DNA of 64,000 bases, from contig SEBU01000005.1 in assembly GCA_004173475.1 (NCBI GenBank), positions 248,001-312,000 on the forward strand, given 5' to 3'. The notes beneath the pieces were generated by a model. That model ran no database searches. It saw nothing but the letters and a program-made list of their open reading frames with translations, and was not told where the DNA came from. This document shows, piece by piece, positions 34,739 through 58,427 of the stretch. The first letter of the stretch is position 1. Every line of letters begins with the position of its first letter. The position numbers and the translations under genes were made by a program. This DNA is from Gammaproteobacteria bacterium (GTDB taxonomy: Bacteria; Pseudomonadota; Gammaproteobacteria; Pseudomonadales; Cellvibrionaceae).

Positions 34739-35161
34739 TCAATGCAGAGATTTATATCTAACTCGTTTCAGCGAATTTTTATCTTTGTCCAAATAACATA
34801 AGAACTTTTGTTTACGAGCTTCTGCTAGCAAAAATTTTGGTAGAAAATTTTCCCAGCCTTTTTTGACTAAAACATCCAATATAAGTGTAATAGGTCCTTC
34901 ATCCCATTCATATTCATACTTGGGTACAGAAAGCTTTTGCTTGGCTGCGAGGTAAGCCTCCTTATTTACTTTTGCCCAGGTGACATAAGCGATAATCTCC
35001 CCATCGCAATTCTCTAAAAAAGAGTAATGACCATATTGAATTGAATTGGACAAACACCGAAGGTCTTCTGGTGAGCTGCTTAAACCGCGCTCTGCTCGCA
35101 ATATGCAAAACTTGCCTAATCGCAGGTTTAATTCCTCAGCGCTGATCATCTTAGATTGCAT
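34739..35161 (-). CDS. HlyC-like toxin-activating lysine acyltransferase
   Basis: 140 residues. HlyC-family enzymes move fatty-acyl groups from acyl carrier protein to lysines of RTX toxins. Shared features are a His in SIQYGHYSFLENCDGEIIAYVTWAKVN (about 29-55; candidate catalytic His) and WDEGPITLILDVLVKKGWENFLPKFL (about 84-109; conserved W, G and Asp). No RTX toxin is in the window. It ends the leftward RiPP operon, 11 bases after TfuA, so acylation of the modified peptide or of a partner protein is a reasonable guess. Neither precursor has a lysine in its C-terminal half, so an amino terminus or hydroxyl would have to be the target. Family call good; substrate open. Confidence 0.72.
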   Translation of the reverse strand: MQSKMISAEELNLRLGKFCILRAERGLSSSPEDLRCLSNSIQYGHYSFLENCDGEIIAYVTWAKVNKEAYLAAKQKLSVPKYEYEWDEGPITLILDVLVKKGWENFLPKFLLAEARKQKFLCYLDKDKNSLKRVRYKSLH

Positions 35162-35172
35162 GGTATAGTTCC

Positions 35173-36579
35173 TTAAGCATAGGCTGCTTTGGCGATAAAA
35201 GCCTGTTCGCGTTCAGCTTGCTGGTCGCACTCATGAATAAACAGATAATGCGCAACCAATTCATTAATAAATAAACGTACGGATGAAAAACCTCGCTCGG
35301 CAGCATGCTTTTCAAGTGATTCACCTACGCTTGAAATATGTTGCTGATACCACCGTAAACTTGCGTCTACCAAGGCATTATCATAGTCGTGATTTTGATC
35401 CAGAGCCTGTTCTTTCAAGCTACTCCACTTCTGATTGACCTCCGAACTTATAGCGGCGTATTGCCCCGTCAATTTCAACGCACTATTAAGCTGCTTATCG
35501 ATCTGTTCGCAATATAAATTTTCTATCAAGTACTGGGTATACTCAGAATGCGCAAGATCGAGACAGTCATTTTTGGTAACGCCATTCTCGATCATCCATT
35601 GTTGTAAACGCTCCGTTGAATGAAGCTTGCGATTTTTACGAAAGTGAAGCAAAGCATCGCGTGAATTGAATTTGCTGCGACGTAGCCGCTTAGCCTCGGC
35701 ATTCACCAAATGCTGTAACAAGGCCTTATCAATGATAGCTTGACGATTTTTTTCAACAAGACGAACGTGATTACGCAAACGATCAAAGTTTGCGCCGCCA
35801 CTAGCTTGCGTATTTATGCCATTAAAATAAATGCTCAAGTGGTCCCAGAAAACCGTTGGTTCAAAGAAAAATTTATTCTTTTCGCGATATTCATTCGACT
35901 CTCTAATGTGCGTAGCCGGAGATTGTGCCACTTTCGTTAGTAGGGAGCGCGCATCCAGTCGCTTTAAATTAGTGTTCATTAATGCAATAAAATTTTTAAA
36001 ATTTTCGATTTGCAATTCCGAAATTGATTTTTCTACGGCTGCCAACCTCATGGCTTTCACTAATTCATGCCAGGTGCGTTGCGGATAATAGGTAGCCTTG
36101 GCGAGTGCAATAGCGGTGTCCACAAAATGCTGGTCGATAATTTTTTCTTCCAGCGCAAGTTCTAAGCCGTAACGAATATTAACCATGGCTTCCGACTGGC
36201 AAATGTAACCACTGTTGGCTGGCCCATGAACTACAGCCACTTCATCATCATCTTCCAGCTTGCCGCTAAGGAAATCGTTGAAGATCTTTCCATGCCCGCG
36301 CATACCAAAAGCTGAAAGCTCTGCCGCGCGTAAAGCGCCCATGCTGCTGGCACCTATCACCGGAATATTTTTATTAAGGGCGAACAAGATTTCTTTGTGC
36401 CAAACGGCGGGCGTTTGTTCAAAGAGTCCGTCGATAATAATAATTAAATCAATCTTCTCTTCACTTTCAACCAGACGATATAAATCACCCATTTTTACCG
36501 GCGGTAAATAATTGGCTTTCAAAATTGTCTCAGCTTCTGAGCGGTCCAGACTTGGACCAAGATAAACAAAGATATTCAT
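35173..36579 (-). CDS. TfuA-like protein (thioamidation partner of YcaO)
   Basis: 468 residues from the ATG at 36579 (AGGACC upstream); the open frame to 36636 is not family-like. The TfuA core occupies the first 200 residues: MNIFVYLGPSLDRSEAETIL, PPVKMGDLYRLVE, IDLIIIIDGLFEQTPAVWHKEILFAL and VIGASSMGALRAAELSAFGMRGHGKIF. The remainder is a long helical region of unknown role. TfuA proteins work with a dedicated YcaO in backbone thioamide formation and have been reported to release sulfur from thiocarboxylated ThiS-type carriers. Here the partner YcaO ends ten bases upstream, and a ThiS/ThiF pair is in the same cluster. Confidence 0.88.
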   Translation of the reverse strand: MNIFVYLGPSLDRSEAETILKANYLPPVKMGDLYRLVESEEKIDLIIIIDGLFEQTPAVWHKEILFALNKNIPVIGASSMGALRAAELSAFGMRGHGKIFNDFLSGKLEDDDEVAVVHGPANSGYICQSEAMVNIRYGLELALEEKIIDQHFVDTAIALAKATYYPQRTWHELVKAMRLAAVEKSISELQIENFKNFIALMNTNLKRLDARSLLTKVAQSPATHIRESNEYREKNKFFFEPTVFWDHLSIYFNGINTQASGGANFDRLRNHVRLVEKNRQAIIDKALLQHLVNAEAKRLRRSKFNSRDALLHFRKNRKLHSTERLQQWMIENGVTKNDCLDLAHSEYTQYLIENLYCEQIDKQLNSALKLTGQYAAISSEVNQKWSSLKEQALDQNHDYDNALVDASLRWYQQHISSVGESLEKHAAERGFSSVRLFINELVAHYLFIHECDQQAEREQAFIAKAAYA

Positions 36580-36589
36580 GCTATGGTCC

Positions 36590-37831
36590 TCATGCTGCAA
36601 TTTTTTGAAGGTAATCTGCGGCACGTTTACCCGCACGATAACTAGAGGTATGGAAAGGTTCCAAGCCGGGGACGACTAGTTTGACAACAGGAATCCCAAT
36701 ATCATCGCGAGTCAAATTCACCACAGCGATTGAATCTAAACCAATCTTTTTTAACTGTTGGATGATCGTATTGAGGTCTTCCTCAAAATAATTGCCGACA
36801 GGCAATTGAGTATTCGGAAAAATTTTCGTGGGCTGTGGGAAACGAATTGCCGCAATCGCCCGTTCGTGATCTTCCTTATTGCCACTTTGTTCATAATCGC
36901 GTGGAAAAATATCATCACGGCTACCAGATATTACGGTCGCGCGGCTTTGAATTGCTTCGTAAATTGCACGTGCTAAAGCAATTTCCGGTTGTAAGTGGCA
37001 ACCGTGACCAGAAAATGCTGGTAAAGGTCGCCAGTATTCACTATCAGGATCTTCATAAATGGTTGCGGTAAATACGGGTAATCCTACATCGCTGGTAATT
37101 TCCCATGCGCTCACAACCACACCGAGCTTAGCTAATTTTTCAATGAGCTCGCGCAGTTCTTTATCATTCACTGTGTGCAAATCGATTTGTTTACTTTTAC
37201 GCTGATGTTGCGGTGTTAATTCCCACAGCGCTAAAGCATCGCGTTCAATAATTTCGTAGAGCGCATGAACAATAGCTTCAAGCAAATGATTTCCAGACGC
37301 GAGCCCATTACTGCTCTGTAAGAAGCTGGGTTGATATTGATGCGCTTGTACAAAGTTGGTGGACACTAATTCAAACGGCAACCAAATTGATTGGTCTTGC
37401 ACCAGGTCATAGGCTTCAATCCAATTAAAAGGGCGGTCATTGCTGGGCGTTGCGTCACTGCGCCATGGCAAATCCGTCAAATTCGGAACATTAAAACGCT
37501 GCGCCATTGCATGCTGCGAATCAAATCGCAAAGGTGCATCTATACGTTCACAATGCCATGACTCTATAGCTTCCATTAACGCCGATGTTTTGGCGGCAAA
37601 CAGGGTTGACCCTTTGCCTTGTGCCGAGGCAAGTGCGCGAGCATTAGGACGAATGGCGACACACACAGGTACACCAATTCGGTCAAGCCCCGTAACGTTT
37701 GCAATACGCGTGATACCCATTTGATTCATGTAACGTGAATAATCATTAAACGTATCTTCTGGCGAACGCAAACGATGCGTACCTAAAAAATGATTTTTTT
37801 TAGCCGATAATTCCTGATTAAAAAATTTCAT
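36590..37831 (-). CDS. YcaO-domain protein, TfuA-associated (predicted peptide thioamidation)
   Basis: About 413 residues. YcaO enzymes use ATP to activate backbone amides. This copy belongs with the TfuA-linked, thioamide-forming branch: LRSPEDTFNDYSRYMNQMGITRIANVTGLDRIGVPVCVAIRPNARALASAQGKG (about 22-75), then ATP/Mg-binding glutamates in ALMEAIESWHCERIDAPLRF and SNGLASGNHLLEAIVHALYEIIERDAL. The C-terminus (YLQKIAA) lacks the proline-rich tail of azole-forming YcaOs, as expected. The ATG at 37831 is chosen; a TTG lies at 37843. It is transcribed with TfuA and the exporter genes upstream. Confidence 0.9.
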   Translation of the reverse strand: MKFFNQELSAKKNHFLGTHRLRSPEDTFNDYSRYMNQMGITRIANVTGLDRIGVPVCVAIRPNARALASAQGKGSTLFAAKTSALMEAIESWHCERIDAPLRFDSQHAMAQRFNVPNLTDLPWRSDATPSNDRPFNWIEAYDLVQDQSIWLPFELVSTNFVQAHQYQPSFLQSSNGLASGNHLLEAIVHALYEIIERDALALWELTPQHQRKSKQIDLHTVNDKELRELIEKLAKLGVVVSAWEITSDVGLPVFTATIYEDPDSEYWRPLPAFSGHGCHLQPEIALARAIYEAIQSRATVISGSRDDIFPRDYEQSGNKEDHERAIAAIRFPQPTKIFPNTQLPVGNYFEEDLNTIIQQLKKIGLDSIAVVNLTRDDIGIPVVKLVVPGLEPFHTSSYRAGKRAADYLQKIAA

Positions 37832-37870
37832 GTGATTACTCAACTATTAATATTGATGAAGTCGCAACGC

Positions 37871-39067
37871 TTATACGGCAGCCAGTGATTTTACCAAGGG
37901 AGTTCTACCCAATTTAATCGCCGGCAAAAGCGCTCCGGCTACACCTATGACTGTTGCAAAGATGCTGGCCAAGCCAAGTGCATAAGCGGAAACATGGAAT
38001 GAAAATACGACCTGACTAAAGTTTTTCGAGAAAAATAATGTTGAGGTGGTGTAGCCGTCGAATAAAAAGTACACCAGCAGGCATCCCAAAATTGCGCCTA
38101 ACAATGTGAGAGCGGTAGATTCGACGACGACAGAAACAACAATCGCTAATTTTTTTATACCTAATGTTTCCAAGGTCGCAAGTTCTCGACGACGCGCGAT
38201 GACGGTCGAAAAATTAGTATTTACCGCAGCGAACACGGCGCCAAACGCCATAAGAATTGCAATGCCGAAGCCGAGACGTTTAACGAACTTATTCAACATG
38301 GCTGACTGCTCAGCGTAGTAATCGGCTTCTGTTGTAACCTGTACATTTAAGCGGGGGTCTTTGTTAAGCGAATTTTGAAAATCTATCGGCTTTACGCCCT
38401 CTGCTAATTTTACATACACCACCTGCGCCGAATTCGCGCGCATGTATGCCGATTGCAACATCAAATTGTCGGTCCACAATTCTGACTCAAGCACAGTGCC
38501 ATTTGCCTCAAAAATTCCTACGACAGTCCACTCTGAATCGCTGAAACGCTTTTTGTCACCAATTTGTAAACCTGAAAATTGGGATTGCGATTTTTTTCCA
38601 ACAATAATTTCAGCTTTACCTGGTTCAAATAGACGCCCTTCAACTAATTTTAACTGGTGGCGAATATCAAATCCGGCGGGTTGTACACCACGCAGGGCCA
38701 CGTTCATGGTTTCAGCGGTGCTTTTATCGTCAATATTTACAATTACGTAAGATTCAGCAGAAAATATTTTTTTACCCTGCTTGTCCGTGGCGATTAATTC
38801 ATTATTTCTGATCAAATCCAATTGATCCCCTGTGAAGCTACTTTCCAATTCTGATTTAGCACCGGAGCGAAAAATAATAATGCTGTCGTCAGCGCCTTTA
38901 AACGACAGTGCTTTTTCATAACCCGCTGCAATGGACAAGATACTGACCAAAACACCGACAACACCAGCGGTACCAATAACACTTGTCAATGAACGGAACA
39001 AACGCTGCTTTATACCAAGCAATGCGATGTGCGATGCGCGTGCAATATGTTTAAGAAGTATTACCAT
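37871..39067 (-). CDS. MacB/FtsX-type ABC transporter permease (second subunit)
   Basis: 398 residues with the MacB-like plan: one N-terminal membrane helix (about 25-48), a large periplasmic domain (about 50-270) and three C-terminal helices containing the FtsX signature (MAFGAVFAAVNTNFSTVIARRRELATLETLGIKKLAIVVSVVVESTALTLLGAILG). It is nine bases downstream of a second permease, with an ATPase and HlyD-type adaptor before that. The set forms a tripartite-type exporter, most likely for the cluster peptide or for self-protection. Confidence 0.88.
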   Translation of the reverse strand: MVILLKHIARASHIALLGIKQRLFRSLTSVIGTAGVVGVLVSILSIAAGYEKALSFKGADDSIIIFRSGAKSELESSFTGDQLDLIRNNELIATDKQGKKIFSAESYVIVNIDDKSTAETMNVALRGVQPAGFDIRHQLKLVEGRLFEPGKAEIIVGKKSQSQFSGLQIGDKKRFSDSEWTVVGIFEANGTVLESELWTDNLMLQSAYMRANSAQVVYVKLAEGVKPIDFQNSLNKDPRLNVQVTTEADYYAEQSAMLNKFVKRLGFGIAILMAFGAVFAAVNTNFSTVIARRRELATLETLGIKKLAIVVSVVVESTALTLLGAILGCLLVYFLFDGYTTSTLFFSKNFSQVVFSFHVSAYALGLASIFATVIGVAGALLPAIKLGRTPLVKSLAAV

Positions 39068-39076
39068 GTTGTTCCC

Positions 39077-40240
39077 CTATACTGTTTTCGCAAGATGTTT
39101 AGAAATTTCCATATTGCTGATACGCAACCCCGGCAAAATAATGGCTGCGATGGTCAGACCTGCAGCACCTAAGATTCCGTAGCCAAGGTCACGCCACCAC
39201 AGCTGCAAGGTTGATAAAAGTTGATCAGACAGCGAGGCGACTTGCGGTATGGCAATAGCGGCAATTAAAAAACCTGCGAAACACCCACCAAAAGAAAACA
39301 GTAGGCTCTCACCAATTACCATAGCCATAATTTTTTTATCGCTATAACCAACCGTTTTTAAAAGCGCCAACTCGGACATGCGCTCGTTAACCGATTGTGA
39401 AAGCGTATTAGCCACTACTAGAATCAGCGTGAAAAACACAGCGCCCAGCGCCAGTGAAATCATTATTCCGAAATTACCTACTTGACGAAGGAAGCTTTGC
39501 GCAAATACTTTTTCAGAAGATGTTTTGGTTTCGTTGGGAGAGTTTTGAAATTTTTTATCAATCGCACTGGCAATAGCATTAGCCTGGTTAGAATCGCTAA
39601 CAACCATAGAATACCAACCCACTAGATCCCGATTGGCAAGGCGAGCCTGATTAAAATAGTCATAATTAATTAACATGCTATTTGTACTACCGCCTTTTTT
39701 GGTAGTGTCAAAAATAGCTTTAACATTGAAAGTCCAACTGAAACTACCATTACTGCGTTGGTGAATTGCGGAATAAATTGGAATTATATCGCCCACCTTC
39801 CAATGATATTTTTCTGCCATCTCTCGACCTACCGCCACACCTGCCGGGTCCTTAATCCAGTCATCCAATTCGGTGGGGTTATTGAAAACAATTTCAGGAA
39901 CCAAGCGTGAATAAACTTTTGGATCAGTAACTGTCGCAGCCACCTGATTGTCTTGATTCTGATAAAAGCCGCCAAAAAACGTGAAATGCCCAACTTCTTT
40001 TACGCCTTCAATTTTTTTAATAACTTCCATATAACTCAGTGGCATTGGGCGCAAAAATGAAGATTTATTGACGCTTATAAGGCGATTAGCATCGGCAACC
40101 TCCACACCTACGTTAAACATACGATTTACCGGTAATAGCAGTGCAAGCAGTAAAAATGCAATCACAATGGTACAAAATGTAAAAATCGAGCGAATTTTCC
40201 AGCGCAGTATATTGGCGGTTACAAGGTCAAATAGAATCAT
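39077..40240 (-). CDS. MacB/FtsX-type ABC transporter permease (first subunit)
   Basis: About 387 residues from the ATG at 40240 (MILFDLVTANILRWKIRSIFTF), which overlaps the ATPase gene end by 14 bases. It shows the same topology as its neighbour: N-terminal helix, periplasmic domain with FTFFGGFYQNQDN, and three C-terminal helices with SLALGAVFFTLILVVANTLSQSVNERMSELALLKTVGYSDKKIM. Two non-identical permeases suggest a heterodimer. The divergence between them is large, so the duplication is old. Confidence 0.88.
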   Translation of the reverse strand: MILFDLVTANILRWKIRSIFTFCTIVIAFLLLALLLPVNRMFNVGVEVADANRLISVNKSSFLRPMPLSYMEVIKKIEGVKEVGHFTFFGGFYQNQDNQVAATVTDPKVYSRLVPEIVFNNPTELDDWIKDPAGVAVGREMAEKYHWKVGDIIPIYSAIHQRSNGSFSWTFNVKAIFDTTKKGGSTNSMLINYDYFNQARLANRDLVGWYSMVVSDSNQANAIASAIDKKFQNSPNETKTSSEKVFAQSFLRQVGNFGIMISLALGAVFFTLILVVANTLSQSVNERMSELALLKTVGYSDKKIMAMVIGESLLFSFGGCFAGFLIAAIAIPQVASLSDQLLSTLQLWWRDLGYGILGAAGLTIAAIILPGLRISNMEISKHLAKTV

Positions 40241-40970
40241 TTCGTCTGGCCTCCTCAACAACACCTTTATTTAAATAAACAGTTTTGTGAGCGTAAGCAG
40301 CTGCTTGTGGGTCGTGGGTAACCAACACAATGGTTTTGCCGTAGTTTTTGTTTAACATGGCCAATAAATCGAGCACCTGCTCCGCTGATTCACGATCCAA
40401 ATCTCCTGTTGGCTCGTCACACAATAAAATATCAGGGTCAGTCACAATTGCTCTGGCTATGGCAACGCGTTGCTGCTGGCCTCCGGATAATTCATTCGGA
40501 AAATGTTTGTTTCGATTTTCCAATCCCACCAATTTGAAACACGCATCCACACGCTTTTTAATATCGTCGCGCGACAAATTAAATAATGACAAGGGTAGCT
40601 CAACATTTTTCTCTGCATTCAACACGGCGATTAAATGATAAAACTGAAAAATAAAACCGACTTCTTGAGCGCGCCATGCTGTTAGCTCAGAGCTATTAAG
40701 TCCGATAATATTTTTTCCTCCGACATACACACTTCCAGAACTAGGACGATCGATGCCGCCGATAATATTCAAAAGCGTCGTTTTTCCAGAACCTGACGGC
40801 CCCATAAGCGCAATGAACTCACCCTTTTTAATGGTGAAATTAACATCACTCAATACTTTCACGGTGCCAGAACCTTTGGTGTACTCCTTATTGATATTGT
40901 GGAGTTTTACCATAGCCTCGGATTTTTCACTGACACACTGCGATATTTCAATCTCTGAATTAATTAACAT
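40227..40970 (-). CDS. MacB/LolD-type ABC transporter ATP-binding protein
   Basis: 247 residues from the second ATG (40970, GAGG eight bases upstream; another ATG at 40976 is possible). It has Walker A (MGPSGSGKTTLL), Q-loop region, signature (ELSGGQQQRVAIARAI), Walker B (ILLCDEPTGDLDRESAEQVL) and H-loop (VLVTHDPQAAAYA). DEPTGDLD is typical of the MacB/LolD exporter class. It powers the two permeases encoded immediately downstream. Confidence 0.92.
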   Translation of the reverse strand: MLINSEIEISQCVSEKSEAMVKLHNINKEYTKGSGTVKVLSDVNFTIKKGEFIALMGPSGSGKTTLLNIIGGIDRPSSGSVYVGGKNIIGLNSSELTAWRAQEVGFIFQFYHLIAVLNAEKNVELPLSLFNLSRDDIKKRVDACFKLVGLENRNKHFPNELSGGQQQRVAIARAIVTDPDILLCDEPTGDLDRESAEQVLDLLAMLNKNYGKTIVLVTHDPQAAAYAHKTVYLNKGVVEEARRNDSI

Positions 40971-41026
40971 ATTCATTGCCTCTGTTATAAATAAAAATTC
41001 AGGTTTAGATACTTGTCTCTAAACCA

Positions 41027-42184
41027 TTAATTCGCAGCCGGGCTACCGGGCTTTACTGACTGGGCTTGACTTAAACGAACCACACCTTTTTCTAAAAACG
41101 CTACGTCAACTCGCATATTGGGAACAATATTTTCGCCGGTGTTCAGCAATTTTATTTTCACAGTGATACTCGCGGTCTCACGATTTGCTTGTGGCATTAT
41201 GTGACTCACTACACCCGTTATTTTTTCATTGGGGTATGCAATGCTGTTGACATTCACTGCCTGGCCCAAGCGTATTTTTTCAATATATTGTTCGCTAACC
41301 TGTACTTCTACTTTCAAAGATTCGATGTCAATAATTGTGCATATTCCAGTACGGGTGAAACCGCCACCGGCAGAAATAGGCGATACAATTTCACCAACTT
41401 CTGCAGCAAGCTCGGTAACAATTCCGGAAAAAGGTGCGTATATTTTTGCGTTTTCCAGCAGTTGCTGCTGAATGGAAAGCTGCTGTTCTGCAACTTTTAT
41501 GTTGCTGGAATTAGTGGCCAATTCAGCTTGTAAAATTGAAAATGTGTAACGCGCATTGTCGAGTTGTTCCTCACTTACAAATTGCTTTGCGCTCAAAGTT
41601 TGAATGCGTTGATATTTTCGCTGCGCTTCGTCCAACCTTATGGCTGTTTGGTTGTAAGTTGTTTTAGCAGTTTCCAATTGCACTTTTGTCAACTGCATTT
41701 GCGCTTCTGCGACACGTTGGTCGATGGTTGCCAACAGCTGGCCTTTAACAACATGCTCCCCTTCTTTTACAAGGATTTCCTTTAAACGCCCCGTAGTATC
41801 AGACGATACGGTTGCACTCTTTTCTGCAAGCACGTATCCCGAAGCATTGACTTGAATGTTTTCGGAAGGGATTGCAGTTGGAGATTGCACCTGGTTTGCA
41901 GCGGCTGTGTTCCCTGGCACAGGATCAGCGATCGGCTGGCCATTGGACATGGTCTTAACAGGGGTTGGCTCCTTGGCCGCCGCGTGAGTTACGACTTCTT
42001 TAGCCTCTTTCGCGACCGATGGTTGAGCGACGCTGTTTATAACTAGCCCGGCAGTAACCACCGAAACGCTAAAAATGGCGGTGACTAACCATTTTCTATT
42101 TCTGGAGGGCGCCGGCGCTTTCAACGATTTATCAAGTTGTAAATCATCAAGCAGATTTTTGGTTTCTGAAGTATTAATTTTCAT
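41027..42184 (-). CDS. HlyD/MacA-type periplasmic adaptor
   Basis: About 385 residues from the ATG at 42184, next to AGGAGG. It has a cytoplasmic N-terminus, one membrane helix (KWLVTAIFSVSVVTAGLVI, about 32-50), a Pro/Ala-rich linker, biotinyl-lipoyl-like half-motifs (VSSDTTGRLKEILVKEGEHVVKGQLLATID and ENAKIYAPFSGIVTELAAEVGEIVSP) and an alpha-helical hairpin between them. It is first in the leftward operon and connects the MacB-type exporter to an outer-membrane channel (no TolC homologue here). A lux-box-like site lies 135 bases upstream. Confidence 0.9.
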   Translation of the reverse strand: MKINTSETKNLLDDLQLDKSLKAPAPSRNRKWLVTAIFSVSVVTAGLVINSVAQPSVAKEAKEVVTHAAAKEPTPVKTMSNGQPIADPVPGNTAAANQVQSPTAIPSENIQVNASGYVLAEKSATVSSDTTGRLKEILVKEGEHVVKGQLLATIDQRVAEAQMQLTKVQLETAKTTYNQTAIRLDEAQRKYQRIQTLSAKQFVSEEQLDNARYTFSILQAELATNSSNIKVAEQQLSIQQQLLENAKIYAPFSGIVTELAAEVGEIVSPISAGGGFTRTGICTIIDIESLKVEVQVSEQYIEKIRLGQAVNVNSIAYPNEKITGVVSHIMPQANRETASITVKIKLLNTGENIVPNMRVDVAFLEKGVVRLSQAQSVKPGSPAAN

Positions 42185-42318
42185 ACCCTCCTTCTGGAAA
42201 TTTGGCGCATCTATCTTCCAAATAACCTGACATTTCATGGAGATTGGGAAGATAGCGAGCGCTTATCAAGCAAATAGCAAGTTCGGCTAGCTTAGTCATC
42301 GGGTAACCCAGCGCAAAG

Positions 42319-42334
42319 CTGTAACAACTTACAG
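42319..42334 (-). promoter_or_regulatory. lux-box-like site upstream of the exporter/TfuA operon
   Basis: CTGTAACAACTTACAG fits CT-N12-AG with matching arms (CTGTAA/TTACAG). Reading leftward, GATGAC (18 bases beyond the box) and CTATTT spaced by 17 form a plausible -35/-10 for the HlyD-type gene. It may also influence precursor 1. Confidence 0.7.
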
Positions 42335-42500: not shown

Positions 42501-42562
42501 CTGTAACAACTATCAGGTTTTTTAAAAAGTCGTTGACTAGCAATTAGGAATTTTGATTGTAT
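42501..42562 (+). promoter_or_regulatory. lux-box-like site and promoter of precursor 1
   Basis: CTGTAACAACTATCAG (42501-42516) is followed after 16 bases by TTGACT (42533-42538) and, 18 bases on, TTGTAT (42557-42562). The predicted start of transcription near 42569 puts the box centre near -60. The same geometry is found at precursor 2. Confidence 0.7.
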
Positions 42563-43046: not shown

Positions 43047-43060
43047 TCAAAAATAATAAC

Positions 43061-49380: not shown

Positions 49381-49465
49381 CCCAGGATTGTTAGAAAGAT
49401 ATTTTGGTAAAAAATACGTAATTTTTAAATTTAATTTAATTCAATAATTGAGATGGAGAAATAAC

Positions 49466-50372: not shown

Positions 50373-51719
50373 ATGAATCCTAATCTCACTCTTGATGAAC
50401 GTTATTTACGAAATAAATATTCTTTTGGGCATTCACTTACCCCCATCGGAGGAATTTTGGCCGGCGTTAGTCGCCTGAGCGCCGAGCACACTGCACCTGA
50501 TTTTGAAATTGCGGTGTCTGATCTAGACAATCTCACCAAAATTTTTCCGCACGTTTCGCGGCCGGATGGAACCGATGCCTGTAAAGAACCTTTAGGTGGC
50601 GCAGGTGCTGATATAGACCCTGAGTTAGCCTGGTTGCGCGCGGTTATGGAAGGCCTCGAACGATATTCGGGCATGGCATTTAAGGATGAAGATTTTATTC
50701 TCGCGACCGCAAATGAATTAGGTGACCTCGCACTTGATCTCGACACCATACCCCGCTGTTCTGAACGCGAATATGCAGATCCGCAATGTCCTTATATGGC
50801 GCCGGACAAAAATAAAAAAATCCGTTGGGTGCAAGGTTATTCGCTTGTAGATAAATGCAAGCGCCTCGTACCAGGTGCGATGTCCATGCTCTATTTTAAA
50901 CCCTGGGTTGGTGAAAATATTGCGATTGAAATCTCCACCGGAACTGCCGCGCACACCAGTCTTGAAACCGCATTGGTCTCGGCTATTTGTGAAGTTATCG
51001 AGCGTGACTCAATTGCATTGTCATGGTTGCTGAAAATTCCGTTACCGCGAATTGAATTTACACATCCATTGCCACCGGTATTAGCACCTAACTATGGGCG
51101 CCTCGAAAATAGTCTCGTTAAACAATATTTTTTTGACGCGACAACCGACATAGGTATTCCAACCGTGTACGCGTTACAACTGTTGGAGAACCAACCCATC
51201 CTGTCGCAATACGTTGCCTGTGCTACCGGTTTTGATGCAGCTGCTTGTTGCGCAAAAACGATTCGTGAATCAGCACCATCGCGCTCAGTGTTCCAGGACA
51301 ATTATCAAGTACCGGACAATGTTATTGATTTTCGCACTCTCTATGACGGTGCAGCATTTCTCGGGCGTGCAGAAAACCGCAGTGCATTTGAATTTTTAAC
51401 TAACACTCCAAATCGTATTGCACTGGGAGATATGGGGCCAAAGGATGCAGGCAATTCTGATCGAGAGCGCTTAAATTATTTAGTGAAAATACTTGCCAGT
51501 ATGGATATGGATATAGTTGTGGTCGACATGACAACAGAAGAGTTGCGCAAGATGGGTATATGGGTCGTGCGCGCAATTATTCCTGGTCTTATGCCTATGA
51601 GTTCAGTTCAGCGTGCCCGCTTTTTAGGACACAAACGTTTGCATGACTATGCAAAAAAAATCGGGATCGTTGATTTTAATGAATCAATGGTAAATCAATC
51701 ACCTCAACCTTTTGCGTAA
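50373..51719 (+). CDS. YcaO-domain cyclodehydratase (azoline-forming)
   Basis: 448 residues, second YcaO of the cluster. ATP/Mg-binding regions include RAVMEGLERYSGMAF (about 89-103) and TSLETALVSAICEVIERDSIAL (about 195-216). The C-terminus ends NQSPQPFA, a degenerate form of the proline-rich tail found on azole-forming YcaOs. Its neighbours are E1-like partner proteins rather than TfuA. Expected role: ATP-dependent cyclodehydration of Cys/Ser/Thr in the precursor to azolines, guided by an E1-like/RRE partner. AGGAG precedes the ATG. Confidence 0.9.
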   Translation: MNPNLTLDERYLRNKYSFGHSLTPIGGILAGVSRLSAEHTAPDFEIAVSDLDNLTKIFPHVSRPDGTDACKEPLGGAGADIDPELAWLRAVMEGLERYSGMAFKDEDFILATANELGDLALDLDTIPRCSEREYADPQCPYMAPDKNKKIRWVQGYSLVDKCKRLVPGAMSMLYFKPWVGENIAIEISTGTAAHTSLETALVSAICEVIERDSIALSWLLKIPLPRIEFTHPLPPVLAPNYGRLENSLVKQYFFDATTDIGIPTVYALQLLENQPILSQYVACATGFDAAACCAKTIRESAPSRSVFQDNYQVPDNVIDFRTLYDGAAFLGRAENRSAFEFLTNTPNRIALGDMGPKDAGNSDRERLNYLVKILASMDMDIVVVDMTTEELRKMGIWVVRAIIPGLMPMSSVQRARFLGHKRLHDYAKKIGIVDFNESMVNQSPQPFA

Positions 51720-51726
51720 TATTATT

Positions 51727-52356
51727 ATGATTATCATCACTGCTGGTAAATTTGGTAATGCAATCGGTGCACGCGTCAACGAGTTGATCACGGTGCATAC
51801 CATTGACATTCAATATATCGAAGAAGATTTCGCCGCACAATTCAAACGCGATTTCGCTGACGAACAACATATCGTGTTTGCCTCATGGCGGCCTTATCCA
51901 GAAATTTGCGAAGCGATAGATAATTATTGTTACGCAGAAAATAAAAGCTGGACCATGGTTGAACTGCACGGTCAACGGCTCACCTGCGGCCCTACTGTAA
52001 TACCGGGCAAAGGCGCTTGTTATAGCTGCTACAAAAAACGTTATTTATCTCACCACCGTGCTCCTGAACGAGAGTTGGTATTAACTAACGCTTATCAAAA
52101 AAATCCTGCGCTTGGCCCAGAGGGCTACTGTATGCCCATGGTAGAGCTCGCAGCAACCGCTATTGTCGACAGCCTTACCAGGCTTACAGATCACGTCGGC
52201 AAAGTGCGTGTTGTTGATGTGCTCGGCGGCACAGTCATCGAAGGTGAAGTGATTGGTATTCACGCATGTAAAAAATGTGGTGAAAAAAGAACAACGCCAA
52301 GTCACGAACGCTTCACTGAAAAATTAATTCCGGAACTTGCTGAGGTGTTGGAATGA
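51727..52356 (+). CDS. E1-like/TOMM-partner protein with two Cys pairs
   Basis: About 209 residues. Zinc-type Cys pairs occur in GKGACYSCYKKRY (about 95-107) and HACKKCGEKR (about 178-187), as in ThiF-like RiPP partner proteins, but the glycine-rich ATP loop of true E1 enzymes is missing. It probably helps the cyclodehydratase engage the precursor. The start is not firm: an ATG at 51727 is used, lying seven bases after the YcaO stop; the frame opens at 51712. Its end overlaps the next start by four bases (ATGA). Confidence 0.78.
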   Translation: MIIITAGKFGNAIGARVNELITVHTIDIQYIEEDFAAQFKRDFADEQHIVFASWRPYPEICEAIDNYCYAENKSWTMVELHGQRLTCGPTVIPGKGACYSCYKKRYLSHHRAPERELVLTNAYQKNPALGPEGYCMPMVELAATAIVDSLTRLTDHVGKVRVVDVLGGTVIEGEVIGIHACKKCGEKRTTPSHERFTEKLIPELAEVLE

Positions 52357-54722
52357 AAAACTTTTCGCTTACCCAATCTGCTGAATTAATTGGCGGAAAA
52401 TTTGATGAAGATCCCGAATTGCATATTCCGGAATACCCACGCTTTCCACAGGAAATACTGGCCATTCCATTTGGAAAATTGGGATTGCTATTTGAAGGCG
52501 CAAAAGGCACCCAGGTGTTAAACGGAAATGCTGCACGTCAATTTGTTCCATCACTGCTAAAACATTTAAATGGCCGTAATTCGCTTGCTGATTTGCAAAC
52601 AATTTTTCCCAAGATACCAGCAAAATCCATTCGCGACACAGTGGCTTTGTTGTACAGCCGTGGATTGCTTGAATCGGGCGATAGCGAGCCATCAAAGAAA
52701 CATGAAGAGTTGGCTTCTTTCCTTGGACGTTATGCCGACGTAACGCGCATTAATAAAAACCGCGGTGAAGCCTTGGATAAAATAGCTCGCGCCAAGGTTG
52801 CAATTTTGGGCAATGCAGCGCAAGCACAACCTATTTTAGCGGCATTGTCGAATCAGGGATTCAGCCAGCTAAACCTTCATGAAAGCACGAACAACCTTTC
52901 ACAAAAAATTGATTTGCTCGTTATTCTTGCGTCCAATAATAAAGAAGAAAATCAAGCATGGTTTAATTTCGCCCACGAAAAAAATATTCGTGTCTTACAT
53001 GCGCATATAGGTCATGAAAACGTACAAATCGGCCCGCTAATTATTCCGGGGAAATCGGCATGCTACGATTGCTTCCAAAACATATGTGTTGAACCCGAAG
53101 GTATTCCGGGTACCGATATGAGCTTTTGGTCAGCAATGGTTGCGCTGAACGCATTTCATATTGTGAGTATGATCGGTACACCACGCCTTTATAATATCTG
53201 CCACCAATATTTGAGCGATGGGAAAGGCCGTTACTACGAAGAAAGACGTGTGGTGCGCTTACCCGGTTGTACTAAATGTGGTTTGGCCGACTGCAAACCA
53301 AAACTCAGTGAACCCAATGGTGACATATGGTTGTTGCATAATTTTGCGAACTCCATGCCACCGCGTGAGCTCATGAGTCCAAGGGATTATCAGCATCACT
53401 ACGCCGCAGCCAATATTAGTATTACTCAGGAAATTCCTGAACCTTATTACGGTTCAGAAAAAGTTATTCTGCCGGAGGGAGACGAATCTCTGGGCCAACC
53501 TAATTGGCTCGGTGAATCACCTGTAACCAAAAAATATTTCGATGTAAAAGATTTGGGAAATATTTTGCGCTACTCCGTAGGTTATGAACCTGTTCCAAAC
53601 GGGCAGCGTCGTATCGCACCCAGTGGTGGCGGGTTGGGGTCAGCGGAATTATTCCTGGTTGTTCGTAATATTAAAGGATTAGCAGACGGCGTTTATCATT
53701 ACTACGCCTTCAGTCATTACCTCGAACGTATTAAAGATATTTCCAACCACATGCTACAAGGAATATTGGGAATCACCGAACGCGATTTACCACAGCTCCT
53801 TTTAGTCGGTGTGGGAAGTTTGAAAAAGCTTCGTCAGAAATACGGTAATTTTGCGTTCCGCTTTTCTAACCTGGATGCAGGTGTAACGCGTAGTTATCTT
53901 CACCATTTGTTGCGTGGCCATGGTTATGAATACACCGAATATTCTGATGTGCGCGACAAAGCCCTGGCAGAATTAATTGGCTTACCCACCATGGGTAATC
54001 GCTATTTAATTACCTATGCGCTTGGAATCGGTTTACGCAAACAAGATGCTTATCTTCCGCGCACAGGCGTAATGAGTTGCATGGATTCATTGGTAGAACT
54101 TTCTGCCAAATTGGGATCGCAACCCTTGCCCGACAAGGCCGATAAAATTCCTAATTTACCGCCACAAAAATTAACATCCTTAAAAGAAATATTTCGCGCC
54201 CGCCGTTCAGAACGAAATTTTTCTTCCAAAGCAATTCCATTGCCTATTTTAAAAGGGCTGTGCCAAATCGCCTACGGTAATTACCAAAATCGTTTGGCGC
54301 GTAGCCTGATAAAAATTGAATTGAAACTTTGGGTGGGTGTTGTTCAAGGAAATGATGATTATGTGGATGGAGTTTATGCGTGGAATCCACAGACGCAAAA
54401 TCTTGAGCTAAAAACCGCAGGATTAAAACCCGAAACGCTGGACGAAACAATGCTGCAAAAAAGTCTGGCGCGTGCGCCTGTGGTGTTTTATATCACCGGC
54501 AATTTTGAGCAGGCAGTTACGCAATACGGTGCACGTGGTTACCGCGATTTAATCAGCTGTGCCGGCACTATTGCCAGCGAGTCTTTGTTGGCGAGTGTTG
54601 CTTACGGTATTGCCGGTTGCCCGTGGGGTGGATTGGCGGAGGATGCCTGGGGACCACTGTTTAATATTGATCGCTACCGCGACTGCCCGTTGTTCGGTGT
54701 CTCCCTGGGGTATGCACTATGA
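52353..54722 (+). CDS. Fused E1-like partner and tandem SagB-type dehydrogenase
   Basis: 789 residues in three parts. Residues about 20-115 look like the leader-binding (RRE) module of ocin-ThiF-like proteins (LLFEGAKGTQVLNGNAARQFVPSLLKHLNG). Residues about 140-330 form an E1-like domain with Cys pairs SACYDCF and CTKCGLADC. The rest has two nitroreductase/SagB-like segments: about 390-580 (RYSVGYEPVPNGQRRIAPSGGGLGSAELFLVVRN) and about 610-789 (IFRARRSERNFSSKAIPLPILKGLCQIAYG). FMN dehydrogenases of this type oxidise azolines to azoles. One polypeptide thus joins substrate recognition to oxidation. The second copy may be structural. Confidence 0.82.
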   Translation: MKNFSLTQSAELIGGKFDEDPELHIPEYPRFPQEILAIPFGKLGLLFEGAKGTQVLNGNAARQFVPSLLKHLNGRNSLADLQTIFPKIPAKSIRDTVALLYSRGLLESGDSEPSKKHEELASFLGRYADVTRINKNRGEALDKIARAKVAILGNAAQAQPILAALSNQGFSQLNLHESTNNLSQKIDLLVILASNNKEENQAWFNFAHEKNIRVLHAHIGHENVQIGPLIIPGKSACYDCFQNICVEPEGIPGTDMSFWSAMVALNAFHIVSMIGTPRLYNICHQYLSDGKGRYYEERRVVRLPGCTKCGLADCKPKLSEPNGDIWLLHNFANSMPPRELMSPRDYQHHYAAANISITQEIPEPYYGSEKVILPEGDESLGQPNWLGESPVTKKYFDVKDLGNILRYSVGYEPVPNGQRRIAPSGGGLGSAELFLVVRNIKGLADGVYHYYAFSHYLERIKDISNHMLQGILGITERDLPQLLLVGVGSLKKLRQKYGNFAFRFSNLDAGVTRSYLHHLLRGHGYEYTEYSDVRDKALAELIGLPTMGNRYLITYALGIGLRKQDAYLPRTGVMSCMDSLVELSAKLGSQPLPDKADKIPNLPPQKLTSLKEIFRARRSERNFSSKAIPLPILKGLCQIAYGNYQNRLARSLIKIELKLWVGVVQGNDDYVDGVYAWNPQTQNLELKTAGLKPETLDETMLQKSLARAPVVFYITGNFEQAVTQYGARGYRDLISCAGTIASESLLASVAYGIAGCPWGGLAEDAWGPLFNIDRYRDCPLFGVSLGYAL

Positions 54723-55750
54723 CAAGCATGGCAACTGCAAACTCCGAAACCGTTTATCGTTTTCACGAGCATGTAGTGCGTTTTCATCGTGCCCACACTG
54801 TCATGCTCGTTTCAAAAAAAGATGGGACTTCTGTGCGCGTGAGCCAGGGGGCGGTTGAGTTGCTGCCGCTTCTTGCTGAGGGTGCAGATTCAGAAACCTT
54901 GGTTGCGCGCTTGCGTGCGCTTTACCCGCAGGCGCGCAACCCGGCAAGTAAATTGAAAATGTTTCTGGCACAGCTCGCGCAAGCTGGCTTGCTGGATAAT
55001 CTTCCTGAGCAACCGCGAACAAAACCTTCTGCGCGAAAAATTGTGCTGGGTAATCCGGATGCTGTTGCAAAAAAATTTGCTGCTGCATTCATGCTTGTTC
55101 CGAGTTGGCTACGAGCGGCTTTTACAGTCTCGCTAATTATCGCAGCGTGCACAGGAATAGGCGCACTGTTTCTGGATAAAAATAATTTGCCTCACCCCAT
55201 GCGGCTATTTGATGCATTCAGTGTATGGGGGCTCATGGCATTTATTATTTTAGTCGTTCCCCTACATGAATTCGCGCATGCCGTTGCGTGTCGAATGTCT
55301 GGGGTTCCGGTAGGGCAGGCAGGTTTGCTATTTCACGGAATCATGCCTGGCCCCTATGTTGATACAGGATTTTTTTATCAGATACGTGGCAAATATCAAC
55401 GCTTCCGTGTGCCCGCAGCAGGGCCGCTCATTGATTTGCTCGCAGCAGGTACCGCCGCCTGGCTATTGATTCTGTTGGATGCGCCAAGCCTTTCACCTGC
55501 ATTGGTCACGCTATTTTTGTTAAGCATAGCGTTTGTTTATCTCGACACTAATCCACTTGCACCGAGTGACGGTAGCCGCATGCTTGAAGCGCTGCTCGAC
55601 GATGAATTAGCTCGTCGCTCAGCACTATCGCGCAAACGTTCAGGATTGTCTTATTGGAAATCGGTTTGGTTGTATCGTGCAGTTTTAGTTCTGCATCTTG
55701 CAATTAGCGGTTTGTTTATCTGGTATTGGTGGACCCATAGCGTTCGCTAA
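54719..55750 (+). CDS. M50-family membrane metalloprotease with PqqD-like N-terminal region
   Basis: 343 residues. An N-terminal PqqD/RRE-like region (about 10-100: VSQGAVELLPLLAEG, FLAQLAQAGLLDN) precedes five or six membrane helices. The zinc site is HEFAH in VVPLHEFAHAVACRMSG (His at about 183), and the third ligand is in DTNPLAPSDGSRML (about 281-294). This is an S2P-type intramembrane protease plan. It could remove the leader or act in maturation or export. It overlaps the preceding gene by four bases. Confidence 0.85.
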   Translation: MTSMATANSETVYRFHEHVVRFHRAHTVMLVSKKDGTSVRVSQGAVELLPLLAEGADSETLVARLRALYPQARNPASKLKMFLAQLAQAGLLDNLPEQPRTKPSARKIVLGNPDAVAKKFAAAFMLVPSWLRAAFTVSLIIAACTGIGALFLDKNNLPHPMRLFDAFSVWGLMAFIILVVPLHEFAHAVACRMSGVPVGQAGLLFHGIMPGPYVDTGFFYQIRGKYQRFRVPAAGPLIDLLAAGTAAWLLILLDAPSLSPALVTLFLLSIAFVYLDTNPLAPSDGSRMLEALLDDELARRSALSRKRSGLSYWKSVWLYRAVLVLHLAISGLFIWYWWTHSVR

Positions 55751-55775
55751 TAAATACTGTGAAGGAAATAGACGA

Positions 55776-58427
55776 ATGAAAAATCAAGCAATTAACATTT
55801 TTAATAACGATTTAGCACAGCCATTCTCCAGCGAAGGCTATGAACTCGTTGTAGATAATATAAAAAATGTAGCGGAACTTGAAAAAAATAATAGTGTGCA
55901 AAAAAATCCGGACAAAGACGCCGTAGTGTTTGCACCCTTTTGCTTATTACGAATCGCCGCCCTACCCTATGAAATGCTTGGCGCATTACGCACGCAAAAG
56001 ACTCTCGCGTTGGTCGACAAAATTCTTTTACAACGCAAACAGTTGAACGATTTAAAAACAACTGTCGAGGCTATTTTACATAGCCTGGTGCCGCGCTTGG
56101 CCGAAGACGAAGTCAGCTTGCGCCGCCTCACTATTAAATTAAAAAGAGACGTTCACAACGGCCGGCTCACAGGATATCGAGATAGCGACTTAAACCAAAT
56201 TTCCGAACGATTACTTGAAGGGGAAAAAACCAGTTTTACGCAATGGCGCCAGCTGAAAGGTGAATTGGAAAGAAGCGAATTCAGCATAGATGACGTTTTT
56301 TTTGACGAACAACAAAATGTTCTGCGCCCCAACTTGCGCGCAGCTTTATCCAATCCTCTTTTTCAACATGCTTTAGCTTATGGTAGCGCCGGTGTTGCAC
56401 GCAGTGCATTAACTGAAAAAAAATTACCCACTAAATTCCAGCCGGACAGCTTGGAAAGATCTTTATTGGGATATCTCATTCGCGCCGCAGCTAAGACCAG
56501 CCCTTTTTCCAGCTTTATGTATCAAACAGCGGTAAGTTTTGCTCCAACCCAGCGAGAAAATACACCCAATGTTGGCAAGCCTACAGTATCTAGTCGAACA
56601 CGATTGAATCGCGGAATACCGAAGCGATTGCACCGAGGTTATTGCCAGGAAGTAGCGGCAGAAGTAAATCTCCCCCTACAAGTTAATGCAAGCTTAAGTG
56701 AATTTGGTGAAGCGGGCCGCCTACAAGCTATTTGTAATCGCGATATTGTTTTACTGGGTCGCCCCTGGTGTGAACAGCGTTATGCGCAATTTCGGTTGGA
56801 TGAAAAATTAGCTGATTTATTAATACGTGGCCCGCAACAAACACGCTGGAATGATTTTCTTGAGCAACTTATCGCTACCGGTATCACGCGCGAAAAAGCC
56901 CAGGCAGTAATGCTCAAACTTTATCAACGCGGAATTTTACTACCGCCTGATTTTACCGATGCTTACGATGCGCAACCTGAGCAAAGTTTGTTAGATTTTT
57001 TGCAAACCTGGGCCAGCAAAAATCCGCAAGTACAATTTGATGACAAGCTCAATGAAATGCGTGACTTAGTCGCTAGCCTCAGTGAATTTAAAACGCATCA
57101 CACAATCGCTGACACCCAAACCATGCTTGATGGTCTTGAAAAAATTCGCGCGCTGGAAACTGAGTCTATGCATGCAGTGCAACAAAAAAAGTACGATGAA
57201 TTCCAAAACATGGTGCTAGAAGATTGTTGGGTGAGCGGCGTACAAGGTGAGTTTGGCGATACGCTCGCACGATCATTGGCAGACCTTGCAGATTTTTTAA
57301 GTACACAAGTGGCAATTTCTACCGAATACGGTCGCATGTTGGATGCCTTTATCCAAGGCTTTGGCGAAGGCGGAACTTGTAATCAGGTAACGGAATTCTT
57401 ATTAACTGTCGGAAATAAATTAATCGACGTTCCAGAGTTTGGCGCCAAGATGGTTTACACACCGCCAAAACCTGCGCGACCAGGAATACCCATAGGGGTG
57501 ACTGCGCAAATACAACTCGCGCGGGATGACGCAACTGGGACACCGCTTGTGGTGGTTAATCGCGTATTCAACGGCCTAGGTTGGTTAAGTTCTCGCTTCG
57601 GTTTTGGCGCGACTAAAGAACAAGAATTGTTGCGTGATTCACTCAGTAATTGGTTATGTACTGCAAGCGCATCTAAAGAACCTGTCGATTTAATTTTGAA
57701 TGGCGACAGCAACGACCTGCAGGCACATCCTCGCTTGACGCGTCGTGTGTTGGCGTGGCCAGGTGAACCTTTACTAGTAGATGAAAAGGAAATTATTCGC
57801 GCTGATCAATTGGTTCTGCGCCACAATACCGAAACTAATTTACTTGAGCTTTTTGATGATGCGGGTGCTGCTATAGATCTCAATTACCTGGGCTCTACGT
57901 TTCCTAGCCCGGCATGGGGTGTCCCTTACGCGCTGTCGATATTAACGCAGCCGTTTCAATTAATGCGGCCTGAGACAGGGCCACCAACCGAATACGATGA
58001 AACTGCAAAAGATATTGTTTTTAATCCGCGGATCACGCACGGAAATACTATTTTGCGTCGTGCAACCTGGTGGGTGAAATCTTCCTACTTAAAAAGTATC
58101 TGGTTTCAAAACAATGGAGCACAGCGCTTACTTGCAGTAAGCGAAAGCCTGCAAAATTTGGAACTGCCGGAAATATTCTTTGCGCAAAAATCCTTTATGC
58201 ATGATGCAGGCATGATAGGTGCCGACGCATTGGATGCTGACCGTAAACCGCTCTGGGTGGACGCTAAAAATTCGTTTTGTTTATCGCTACTGGAACGCAT
58301 TACCGAAAAATGCACATGGGTTTCTTTCACTGAAGCATTGCCCGGCAAACAGGATAACTGGTTCAATGTTGACGGCAAATCCCATGTAACAGAACTTCAG
58401 GTTGAACTTCAAGTTCGCGCGAAATAA
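55776..58427 (+). CDS. LanB-type dehydratase, glutamylation subunit
   Basis: 883 residues from the ATG at 55776 (GAAGGA upstream); the open frame starts at 55698 but overlaps the protease gene. It matches the N-terminal lantibiotic dehydratase domain: FAPFCLLRIAALPYEMLGAL near the start, SLERSLLGYLIRAAAKTSPFSSFMYQTAV (about 228-256) and later SNPLFQHALAYGSAG. These enzymes use glutamyl-tRNA to glutamylate Ser/Thr of the precursor. A fused elimination domain is not evident, so it should pair with the SpaB_C-like protein at 49466. Last gene of the modification operon. Confidence 0.88.
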   Translation: MKNQAINIFNNDLAQPFSSEGYELVVDNIKNVAELEKNNSVQKNPDKDAVVFAPFCLLRIAALPYEMLGALRTQKTLALVDKILLQRKQLNDLKTTVEAILHSLVPRLAEDEVSLRRLTIKLKRDVHNGRLTGYRDSDLNQISERLLEGEKTSFTQWRQLKGELERSEFSIDDVFFDEQQNVLRPNLRAALSNPLFQHALAYGSAGVARSALTEKKLPTKFQPDSLERSLLGYLIRAAAKTSPFSSFMYQTAVSFAPTQRENTPNVGKPTVSSRTRLNRGIPKRLHRGYCQEVAAEVNLPLQVNASLSEFGEAGRLQAICNRDIVLLGRPWCEQRYAQFRLDEKLADLLIRGPQQTRWNDFLEQLIATGITREKAQAVMLKLYQRGILLPPDFTDAYDAQPEQSLLDFLQTWASKNPQVQFDDKLNEMRDLVASLSEFKTHHTIADTQTMLDGLEKIRALETESMHAVQQKKYDEFQNMVLEDCWVSGVQGEFGDTLARSLADLADFLSTQVAISTEYGRMLDAFIQGFGEGGTCNQVTEFLLTVGNKLIDVPEFGAKMVYTPPKPARPGIPIGVTAQIQLARDDATGTPLVVVNRVFNGLGWLSSRFGFGATKEQELLRDSLSNWLCTASASKEPVDLILNGDSNDLQAHPRLTRRVLAWPGEPLLVDEKEIIRADQLVLRHNTETNLLELFDDAGAAIDLNYLGSTFPSPAWGVPYALSILTQPFQLMRPETGPPTEYDETAKDIVFNPRITHGNTILRRATWWVKSSYLKSIWFQNNGAQRLLAVSESLQNLELPEIFFAQKSFMHDAGMIGADALDADRKPLWVDAKNSFCLSLLERITEKCTWVSFTEALPGKQDNWFNVDGKSHVTELQVELQVRAK

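Follow-up and report, generated by a model that had tools for sequence, protein, structure and literature searches.

A putatively quorum-regulated gammaproteobacterial cluster for a predicted azole-, dehydroalanine- and thioamide-bearing peptide, with homologues of the microcin pair MchC/MchD

What kind of peptide should be expected from a gene cluster in which two short precursor genes are accompanied by the enzymes of three different backbone chemistries and, in addition, by genes for a SelO-like and an HlyC-like protein? The cluster in question lies in a stretch of 64,000 nucleotides, referred to here as the window, from contig SEBU01000005.1 (positions 248,001 to 312,000, forward strand) of assembly GCA_004173475.1, the 4.73 Mb genome of a gammaproteobacterium of the family Cellvibrionaceae. 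A first-pass annotation of this DNA had placed at 34739-58427 a cluster for a ribosomally synthesized and post-translationally modified peptide (RiPP). All of the genes that it listed are present where it placed them according to the list of open reading frames (ORFs) and scans with Pfam and NCBIfam models, which bear out the precursors, the two YcaO proteins, TfuA, the ThiS/ThiF-rhodanese pair, the split LanB, the M50 protease and the exporters (Table 1). The cluster unit does not end at 58427, as first drawn, and runs rightward through genes for LuxR, a family-2 glycosyltransferase and LuxI. On balance we favor a peptide product that is made under quorum control, carries azoles, dehydroalanines and a thioamide, and is probably completed by coupling of a sugar-containing group to its C-terminus.

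A recurrent cluster with a conserved precursor

Searches of genome and plasmid databases found 16 proteins of the cluster together with the precursor in two other bacteria. A scan of genome contigs with the azoline YcaO, a single-protein query that detects close relatives only, yielded one close relative, in Pseudoalteromonas rubra S2471. A 50-kb stretch read there holds the genes in the order precursor, ThiS, ThiF, MchC-like, HlyD, TfuA, YcaO, two permeases and ATPase, followed by LanBN, M50, SagB, leader-binding protein, YcaO, LanBC, permease and ATPase, and two extra genes, one for a cupin/JmjC protein and one for a family-2 glycosyltransferase; the HlyC-like gene of this cluster was missed by BLAST at E 1 and was read directly, aligned and confirmed by profile. 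Plasmid searches with TfuA and the precursor found the same 16 proteins and precursor on pAMI4 of the alphaproteobacterium Paracoccus aminophilus. An alignment of the fused SagB proteins matched, at 1e-30, one of 394 genomes (P. rubra itself) and one of 390 (that of the window itself); it also matched three of 72,556 plasmid records, with nearly full-length coverage in one (P. aminophilus). Of 108 genomes from the genus to which P. rubra belongs, one has the close azoline YcaO and 35 have some match, and a search across the class with a single SagB protein gave partial matches only, in 61 other genomes of 369. Paracoccus kondratievae has TfuA with an adjoining YcaO but no such cluster in the stretch. 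Since these scans are limited, the true distribution may be wider.

The precursors A and B of the window are 85% identical to each other and share the conserved leader LDLFAEELPEQVQLLS, and the segment LDLFAEELPEQVQLLSDC is identical in all four precursors (window A and B, P. rubra and Paracoccus). Compared across the 44 codons that begin at LDLF and run to the end, window A and Paracoccus differ synonymously in 27 codons and non-synonymously in 6 (pS 0.97, pN 0.14); for P. rubra and Paracoccus the counts are 30 and 4 (pS 1.01, pN 0.13). Synonymous change is thus near saturation while the core peptide has been kept, which points to purifying selection on the precursor. The recurrence of 16 proteins and the precursor in two other bacteria, together with a pS of 0.97 against a pN of 0.14, takes the cluster beyond what chance would assemble.

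Several other features of these loci can be recorded here. Perfect 8-bp tandem repeats stand upstream of both window precursors, TTTAATGT in 6.1 copies before A (42406-42454) and TTTTTCTA in 8.8 copies before B (42979-43048), and variation in their copy number could tune precursor expression. The P. rubra cluster has at its distal end a second precursor-like frame with no usual start codon (G424:C10:143779-143913), probably a remnant. The Cupin_8/JmjC-type gene of P. rubra (L024:10418-11368), which has no counterpart in the window cluster, lies between the ThiF and MchC-like genes and may add a hydroxylation. An alpha/beta hydrolase gene (L104:20601-21518) closes the P. aminophilus cluster. 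Distant YcaO relatives, with 23-26% identity in the best segment, are encoded by 23 viral contigs (IMG/VR, L081-L103).

The MchC/MchD pair and its possible cargo

The SelO-like protein was assigned to no family by Pfam or NCBIfam. Used as a query against plasmids it matched 21 records, and the 20 listed include genes annotated as SelO family protein, as bacteriocin maturation protein or as MchC. Built from 15 other MchC proteins and leaving out the window and P. rubra rows, a first profile matched the window protein at 2.5e-113 and that of P. rubra at 2e-108, and a profile of 14 other MchC-linked HlyC-like proteins, with the same exclusions, matched P. rubra at 1.4e-31 and the window at 1.1e-23; neither profile found anything further at E 0.1 among 834 ORFs (275 from the window, 221 from P. 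rubra and 338 from Paracoccus). Kinase-type residues are conserved in all 17 MchC rows. An alignment of six MchC rows matched the genome's own SelO in hhalign with probability 73 and E 3e-5, where a two-row alignment gave no match; the two-row alignment matched three of 398 genomes (its own, G835, and G205 at 7.5e-4). In a tree of the 17 rows, window and P. rubra are sisters on long branches with support of 93/95, just under the significance mark of the tree tool. No useful match to solved structures was returned by phmmer for the MchC-like protein or for the HlyC-like protein of G835. In the literature, MchC is described as a subfamily of SelO with an HlyC-like partner, with five MchC genes in Cellvibrio japonicus (PMC3281104), and MceIJ and MchCD are described as attaching glycosylated enterobactin at the microcin C-terminus (PMC7472721, PMC6071977). 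Because the profiles match MchC and MchD-type proteins, and because the microcin papers pair these, the SelO-like and HlyC-like proteins, entered in the first-pass annotation as separate items, are assigned here to one known pair as homologues of MchC/MchD (MceJ/MceI). The idea that the HlyC-like protein is a dead partner, having lost the HlyC histidine, was dropped, as E. coli MchD is also without this histidine.

The two genes also keep company elsewhere. MchC-like genes occur in 7 of 21 genomes of the genus, one of which (G018) has five, the number given for C. japonicus; on this ground the genus is probably Cellvibrio. The HlyC-like gene adjoins MchC in 9 of the 10 places that were fetched out of 12 MchC places found in these relatives, the exception being the second G018d copy, and in all six other loci compared (P. 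rubra, G835, A. wodanis, Pantoea, Salinivibrio and E. coli). Within about 5 kb of MchC, a sugar-active gene stands in 11 of these 16 loci, namely P. rubra, G835, Pantoea and E. coli (by annotation) and G018a, G018b, G018c, G006, G015, G001 and G009. As a control, matches to the family-2 glycosyltransferase model PF00535 were counted in nine genomes (126 in 44.4 Mb); such a match starts next to MchC in 6 of the 15 places compared, where 0.28 would be expected, with a Poisson probability of 6e-7 that is approximate because PF00535 genes cluster. A homologue of the window glycosyltransferase (28% over 565 amino acids) directly follows the MchC-HlyC pair in G001. The sugar enzymes among the genus neighbors include alpha-amylase-family, EryCIII-like and family-2 types, and nine genus stretches around MchC held no YcaO, TfuA or LanB match to the window proteins at E 0.001. 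G835 has a microcin-like cluster (G835:C3:57161-65594) with HlyC-like, MchC-like and glycosyltransferase genes, a radical SAM protein, HlyD and a C39 exporter.

From these associations, conjugation of the present peptide by the pair appears moderately probable, and the chance that the attached cargo includes a sugar is in our estimate a little short of even; a sugar and a lipid-linked sugar are candidates for the group, which may also be of another kind. A number of observations weigh against this reading and have to be set beside it. The precursor C-terminus is almost identical in Paracoccus, where a profile search of a 37-kb stretch found neither an MchC nor an HlyC-like gene, so that the peptide bears no mark of a conjugation site. 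The acceptor known for MceIJ is a C-terminal serine, and the precursor ends in glycine. No siderophore gene was present among ten left-flank ORFs scanned (of 26 with at least 180 amino acids), the right flank past the glycosyltransferase having been inspected by eye except for luxI, and no Fur box was found in the window at up to three mismatches from a consensus; a neighboring Fur-controlled siderophore unit was rejected as a candidate on these two results. Neither ATPase gene has a match to the peptidase C39 domain of a C39 exporter. The window glycosyltransferase lies 14 kb from mchC and is absent from the PF00535 matches of its genome, and no sugar-active gene was seen at A. wodanis, Salinivibrio, G014 or either G018d copy, where the neighbors were partly scanned.

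The same observations feed the strongest competing account, in which the core chemistry is as proposed but the pair modifies the peptide elsewhere, works on a different molecule or contributes to self-protection, with the glycosyltransferase serving a separate quorum-controlled function. A core cluster without the pair in Paracoccus, a C-terminus that is near-identical with and without it, and the distances of about 10 kb for hlyC and about 14 kb for the glycosyltransferase from mchC in the window all speak for such a role. Set against it, both gammaproteobacterial clusters keep both genes inside, in differing arrangements, and their MchC proteins are sisters in the tree. We regard this account as rather unlikely, if a serious one.

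Predicted backbone chemistry and regulation, and the proposed pathway

Divergent operons flank the two precursor genes. The left operon, read leftward, runs from the HlyD-type adaptor through the ATPase, two FtsX-type permeases, YcaO and TfuA to the HlyC-like gene, and on the right the order is ThiS, ThiF-rhodanese, MchC-like, ABC-2 exporter, LanBC, SagD-type YcaO, leader-binding protein, SagB-type fusion, M50 and LanBN, with many of the genes overlapping or standing close together.

Table 1. Features of the cluster and of its rightward extension, in window coordinates (ABC, ATP-binding cassette; TOMM, thiazole/oxazole-modified microcin; aa, amino acids)
Feature	Position	Strand	Evidence
HlyC-like protein, MchD/MceI type	34739..35161	-	profile 1.1e-23; Pfam HlyC E 5.4e-4, 20.3 bits, below cut-off 25
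TfuA, thioamidation partner	35173..36636	-	Pfam TfuA 1.3e-44; solved TfuA 6xp8 1.2e-31
Thioamide-type, TfuA-linked YcaO	36590..37843	-	Pfam YcaO 4.1e-81
MacB/FtsX-type permease	37871..39067	-	family scan
MacB/FtsX-type permease	39077..40264	-	family scan
ABC ATPase, LolD/DarD/MacB type	40227..40976	-	family scans
HlyD/MacA-type periplasmic adaptor	41027..42238	-	family scans
Lux-box-like palindrome CTGTAACAACTTACAG, before left operon	42319..42334		motif search
Weaker lux-box-like site, before precursor A	42501..42516		2 mismatches; outside one-mismatch genome list
Precursor A, 59 aa	42629..42808	+	NF033482 25.1 bits, cut-off 25
Lux-box-like site, before precursor B	43061..43076		motif search
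Precursor B, 59 aa	43195..43374	+	NF033482 26.3 bits, cut-off 25
ThiS-like sulfur carrier, C-terminal Gly-Gly	43644..43919	+	family scan and sequence
ThiF/MoeB-type activating enzyme fused to rhodanese	43952..45112	+	family scan
MchC/MceJ-like protein (SelO family)	45165..46967	+	MchC profile 2.5e-113
ABC ATPase of ABC-2 exporter	47216..48304	+	family scans
ABC-2 permease	48304..49380	+	family scans
LanB elimination domain (LanBC)	49448..50362	+	Lant_dehydr_C 9.7e-34; TIGR03891; NisB weak, 0.0027
SagD-type azoline-forming YcaO	50373..51719	+	TIGR03604 267.4 bits, cut-off 219.25
TOMM leader-binding (ocin-ThiF-like, cyclo_dehyd_2) protein	51712..52356	+	TIGR03882 42.2 bits, cut-off 36.9
SagB-type dehydrogenase, second nitroreductase domain, weak ThiF-like part	52353..54722	+	TIGR03605 above cut-off
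M50 intramembrane metalloprotease, weak PqqD-like N-terminus	54719..55750	+	family scans
LanB glutamylation domain (LanBN)	55698..58427	+	Lant_dehydr_N 6e-12; 9jhq 1.6e-16
LuxR-type autoinducer-binding regulator	58818..59561	+	Autoind_bind 4.3e-29, GerE 4.4e-14
Lux-box-like site, before glycosyltransferase	60859..60874		motif search
Family-2 glycosyltransferase, chitin-synthase-like	60999..63047	+	Pfam Chitin_synth_1 5.8e-18
Lux-box-like site, before luxI	63317..63332		motif search
LuxI-type autoinducer synthase	63439..64000, continues past window end to 64056	+	Autoind_synth 8e-28

The extension to the right bears on regulation. The palindrome CTGTAACnnnTTACAG resembles a lux box. Within the window, a search allowing up to three mismatches to CTGTAACAACTTACAG gave eight matches at six places, one of them inside the HlyD gene, against 0.48 matches expected. 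Over the whole genome a one-mismatch search gave eight rows at five places, four of which are in the window (42319, 43061, 60859 and 63317) and precede, respectively, the left operon, precursor B, the glycosyltransferase and luxI. The genome-wide row count is no higher than the nine rows of a reversed control, which speaks against the reading if taken alone; the signal consequently lies in the clustering of the sites and not in their number. The shared sites tie the glycosyltransferase to the precursors, and quorum control of the cluster is, from these motifs and the LuxR and LuxI families, quite likely. Between LuxR and the glycosyltransferase, on the reverse strand, a 358-aa protein (59541-60617) has no Pfam match to E 1 and no NCBIfam match to 0.001; its N-terminus is, by eye, reminiscent of a RibD-type deaminase.

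That the product carries azoles together with dehydroalanine is the best-founded of the chemical predictions and may be called very likely. The cyclodehydratase YcaO, its leader-binding partner and the SagB-type dehydrogenase all exceed the cut-offs of their NCBIfam models and are encoded by separate genes, with no goadsporin-like fusion. The fused E1-like/SagB dehydrogenase described at the outset stands as to its SagB part, and its ThiF/E1-like part is weak (E 0.009, under the cut-off). The best solved-structure match of LanBN, 9jhq, is named a goadsporin biosynthetic protein.

A thioamide is predicted with good, slightly lesser likelihood. The TfuA and thioamide-type YcaO genes are adjacent, in a cluster with the precursor, and the last two residues of ThiS are Gly-Gly in each of the three clusters. 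TfuA, in work attributed to Liu and colleagues from 2021, reportedly hydrolyses thiocarboxylated ThiS and so supplies YcaO. Outside high-sulfide settings, thioamide-forming YcaO enzymes are described as tending toward ThiS homologues and a TfuA hydrolase (PMC13063428). It is improbable that the TfuA-YcaO pair modifies some other protein and leaves the peptide with azoles and dehydroalanines only: both proteins do find their best models, below cut-off, among those for thioamidation of McrA, a large enzyme (McrA-glycine YcaO, 261 bits against a cut-off of 365), but TfuA-YcaO and ThiS/ThiF accompany the precursor in all three clusters and TfuA was found in one of 57 relatives, the window genome only.

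A thiopeptide, its macrocycle closed by an unrecognized [4+2] enzyme, is very improbable. Precursors A and B do score marginally over the cut-off of the thiocillin-family model NF033482 and LanBC is assigned to the thiopeptide-type model TIGR03891, but the P. rubra and Paracoccus precursors fall below that cut-off (21.7 bits), and the sole Lant_dehydr_C (PF14028) match in the whole genome is LanBC, which is partnered by LanBN and weakly matches the elimination part of NisB, so that the genome offers no further member of that family for the [4+2] step; the macrocycle was rejected on this count. Among 20 cluster and flank proteins scanned, no DUF4135 match was found, and the dehydrazole class was set aside; the same 20 gave no match to a flavoprotein decarboxylase of the type that forms aminovinyl-methylcysteine (AviMeCys). 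Thioamitides of the thioviridamide type have the AviMeCys-forming decarboxylase and its set.

The linear azole/dehydroalanine/thioamide product of the first-pass annotation is thus the natural reading of the gene set, and its further suggestion of acylation by the HlyC-like protein is not upheld. Acylation of a lysine side chain, as HlyC does on RTX proteins, would accord with the weak Pfam match to the HlyC family but is highly unlikely, since none of the four precursors has a lysine from LDLF onward and the protein groups with MchC-linked partners; C-terminal conjugation is the more likely role.

Under the reading of a conjugated peptide, we infer from protein families each chemical step, where and to what the peptide is joined, and any antibacterial role. 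The leader would be bound by the ocin-ThiF-like and E1-like proteins, the SagD-type YcaO would form azolines and the SagB-type protein would oxidize them, LanBN would glutamylate remaining serines and LanBC would eliminate to dehydroalanine. ThiF-rhodanese would charge the ThiS C-terminus with sulfur, which TfuA and the second YcaO would install as a backbone thioamide. In the gammaproteobacterial versions, MchC/MchD would then couple, with the use of ATP, a sugar-containing group to the C-terminus of the peptide, in the way that MceIJ modifies microcin E492, and a family-2 glycosyltransferase would take part in making that group. The leader is probably removed by the M50 protease, and export would proceed via the MacAB-type and ABC-2 exporters. 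More tentatively, the product may be a Trojan-horse antibiotic with a modified backbone, produced when cell density is high, whose C-terminal glycan or glycosylated cargo aids entry into rival cells. MchC, MchD and the glycosyltransferase would then form a portable conjugation module on a complete RiPP pathway, one that both gammaproteobacterial clusters have and the alphaproteobacterial cluster lacks.

Comparison with known systems

The first-pass statement that no gammaproteobacterial example was described holds within the literature searched (mostly titles and abstracts), where neither a product of this kind nor a paper on the P. rubra or P. aminophilus clusters was found, but P. rubra has the whole cluster and P. 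aminophilus has its core. Among the close known systems are TfuA clusters annotated as linear azol(in)e-containing peptides (LAP), which likewise combine TfuA, an extra YcaO and split LanB dehydratases in one cluster and for which the text seen of a 2021 mining study gives no known product (PMC8120280). On the strength of that report, the core belongs to a class already mined, and the present clusters may be among those in its supplements. Most clusters of that class have, unlike ours, a YcaO fused to the cyclodehydratase, and the parts of the study consulted name frequent tailoring glycosyltransferases and neither MchC nor HlyC-like conjugation. The new element is the addition of MchC/MchD and the glycosyltransferase to the core. 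According to the same source, known TfuA-YcaO products were all from Actinobacteria at the time of its writing, and a linear Gram-negative peptide with thioamide, azole and dehydroalanine would, if confirmed, add to the few thioamide RiPPs from elsewhere; the autoinducer system hints at how the cluster could be activated.

Goadsporin and the spongiicolazolicins resemble the predicted product in having azoles and dehydroalanines, a split LanB and no [4+2] enzyme (PMC4603692, PMC10676384, in part). Goadsporin differs in the fused cyclodehydratase and dehydrogenase (B protein) set described in the passage on it (PMC4603692), in contrast to the separate genes here. The coryneazolisins, a mined class, have two YcaO proteins, LanB-type dehydratases and no [4+2] enzyme, but are corynebacterial and have one YcaO fused to the C protein, and the passage describing them does not mention TfuA or MchC/MchD (PMC4603692). 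The dehydrazoles, such as carnazolamide, also carry dehydroalanine beside azoles and are distinguished, in the section that treats them, by DUF4135 LanMbC dehydration and a nitrile-hydratase-like leader (PMC10676384). Saalfelduracin and thiopeptin, which are thioamide thiopeptides, share azoles, dehydroalanine and the TfuA-YcaO thioamide (PMC8120280, in part), but are macrocyclic with a [4+2] enzyme, as opposed to the one Lant_dehydr_C match in the present genome. Goadsporin clusters are not known to have TfuA or an MchC/MchD pair.

The class IIb siderophore-microcins (E492, H47) stand at the other end of the comparison. They consist of a plain peptide without YcaO or LanB, with a C39 exporter and a salmochelin cargo, none of which was found here, and they share with the present cluster the MchC/MchD (MceJ/MceI) pair and a sugar-transfer gene. 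Three natural clusters that differ in the MchC/MchD module make the role of the pair directly testable, by comparing the Paracoccus product with the gammaproteobacterial ones. If our reading is correct, the ligase that joins peptide to cargo in the siderophore-microcins is not restricted to plain microcins and can also complete a peptide with extensive modifications.

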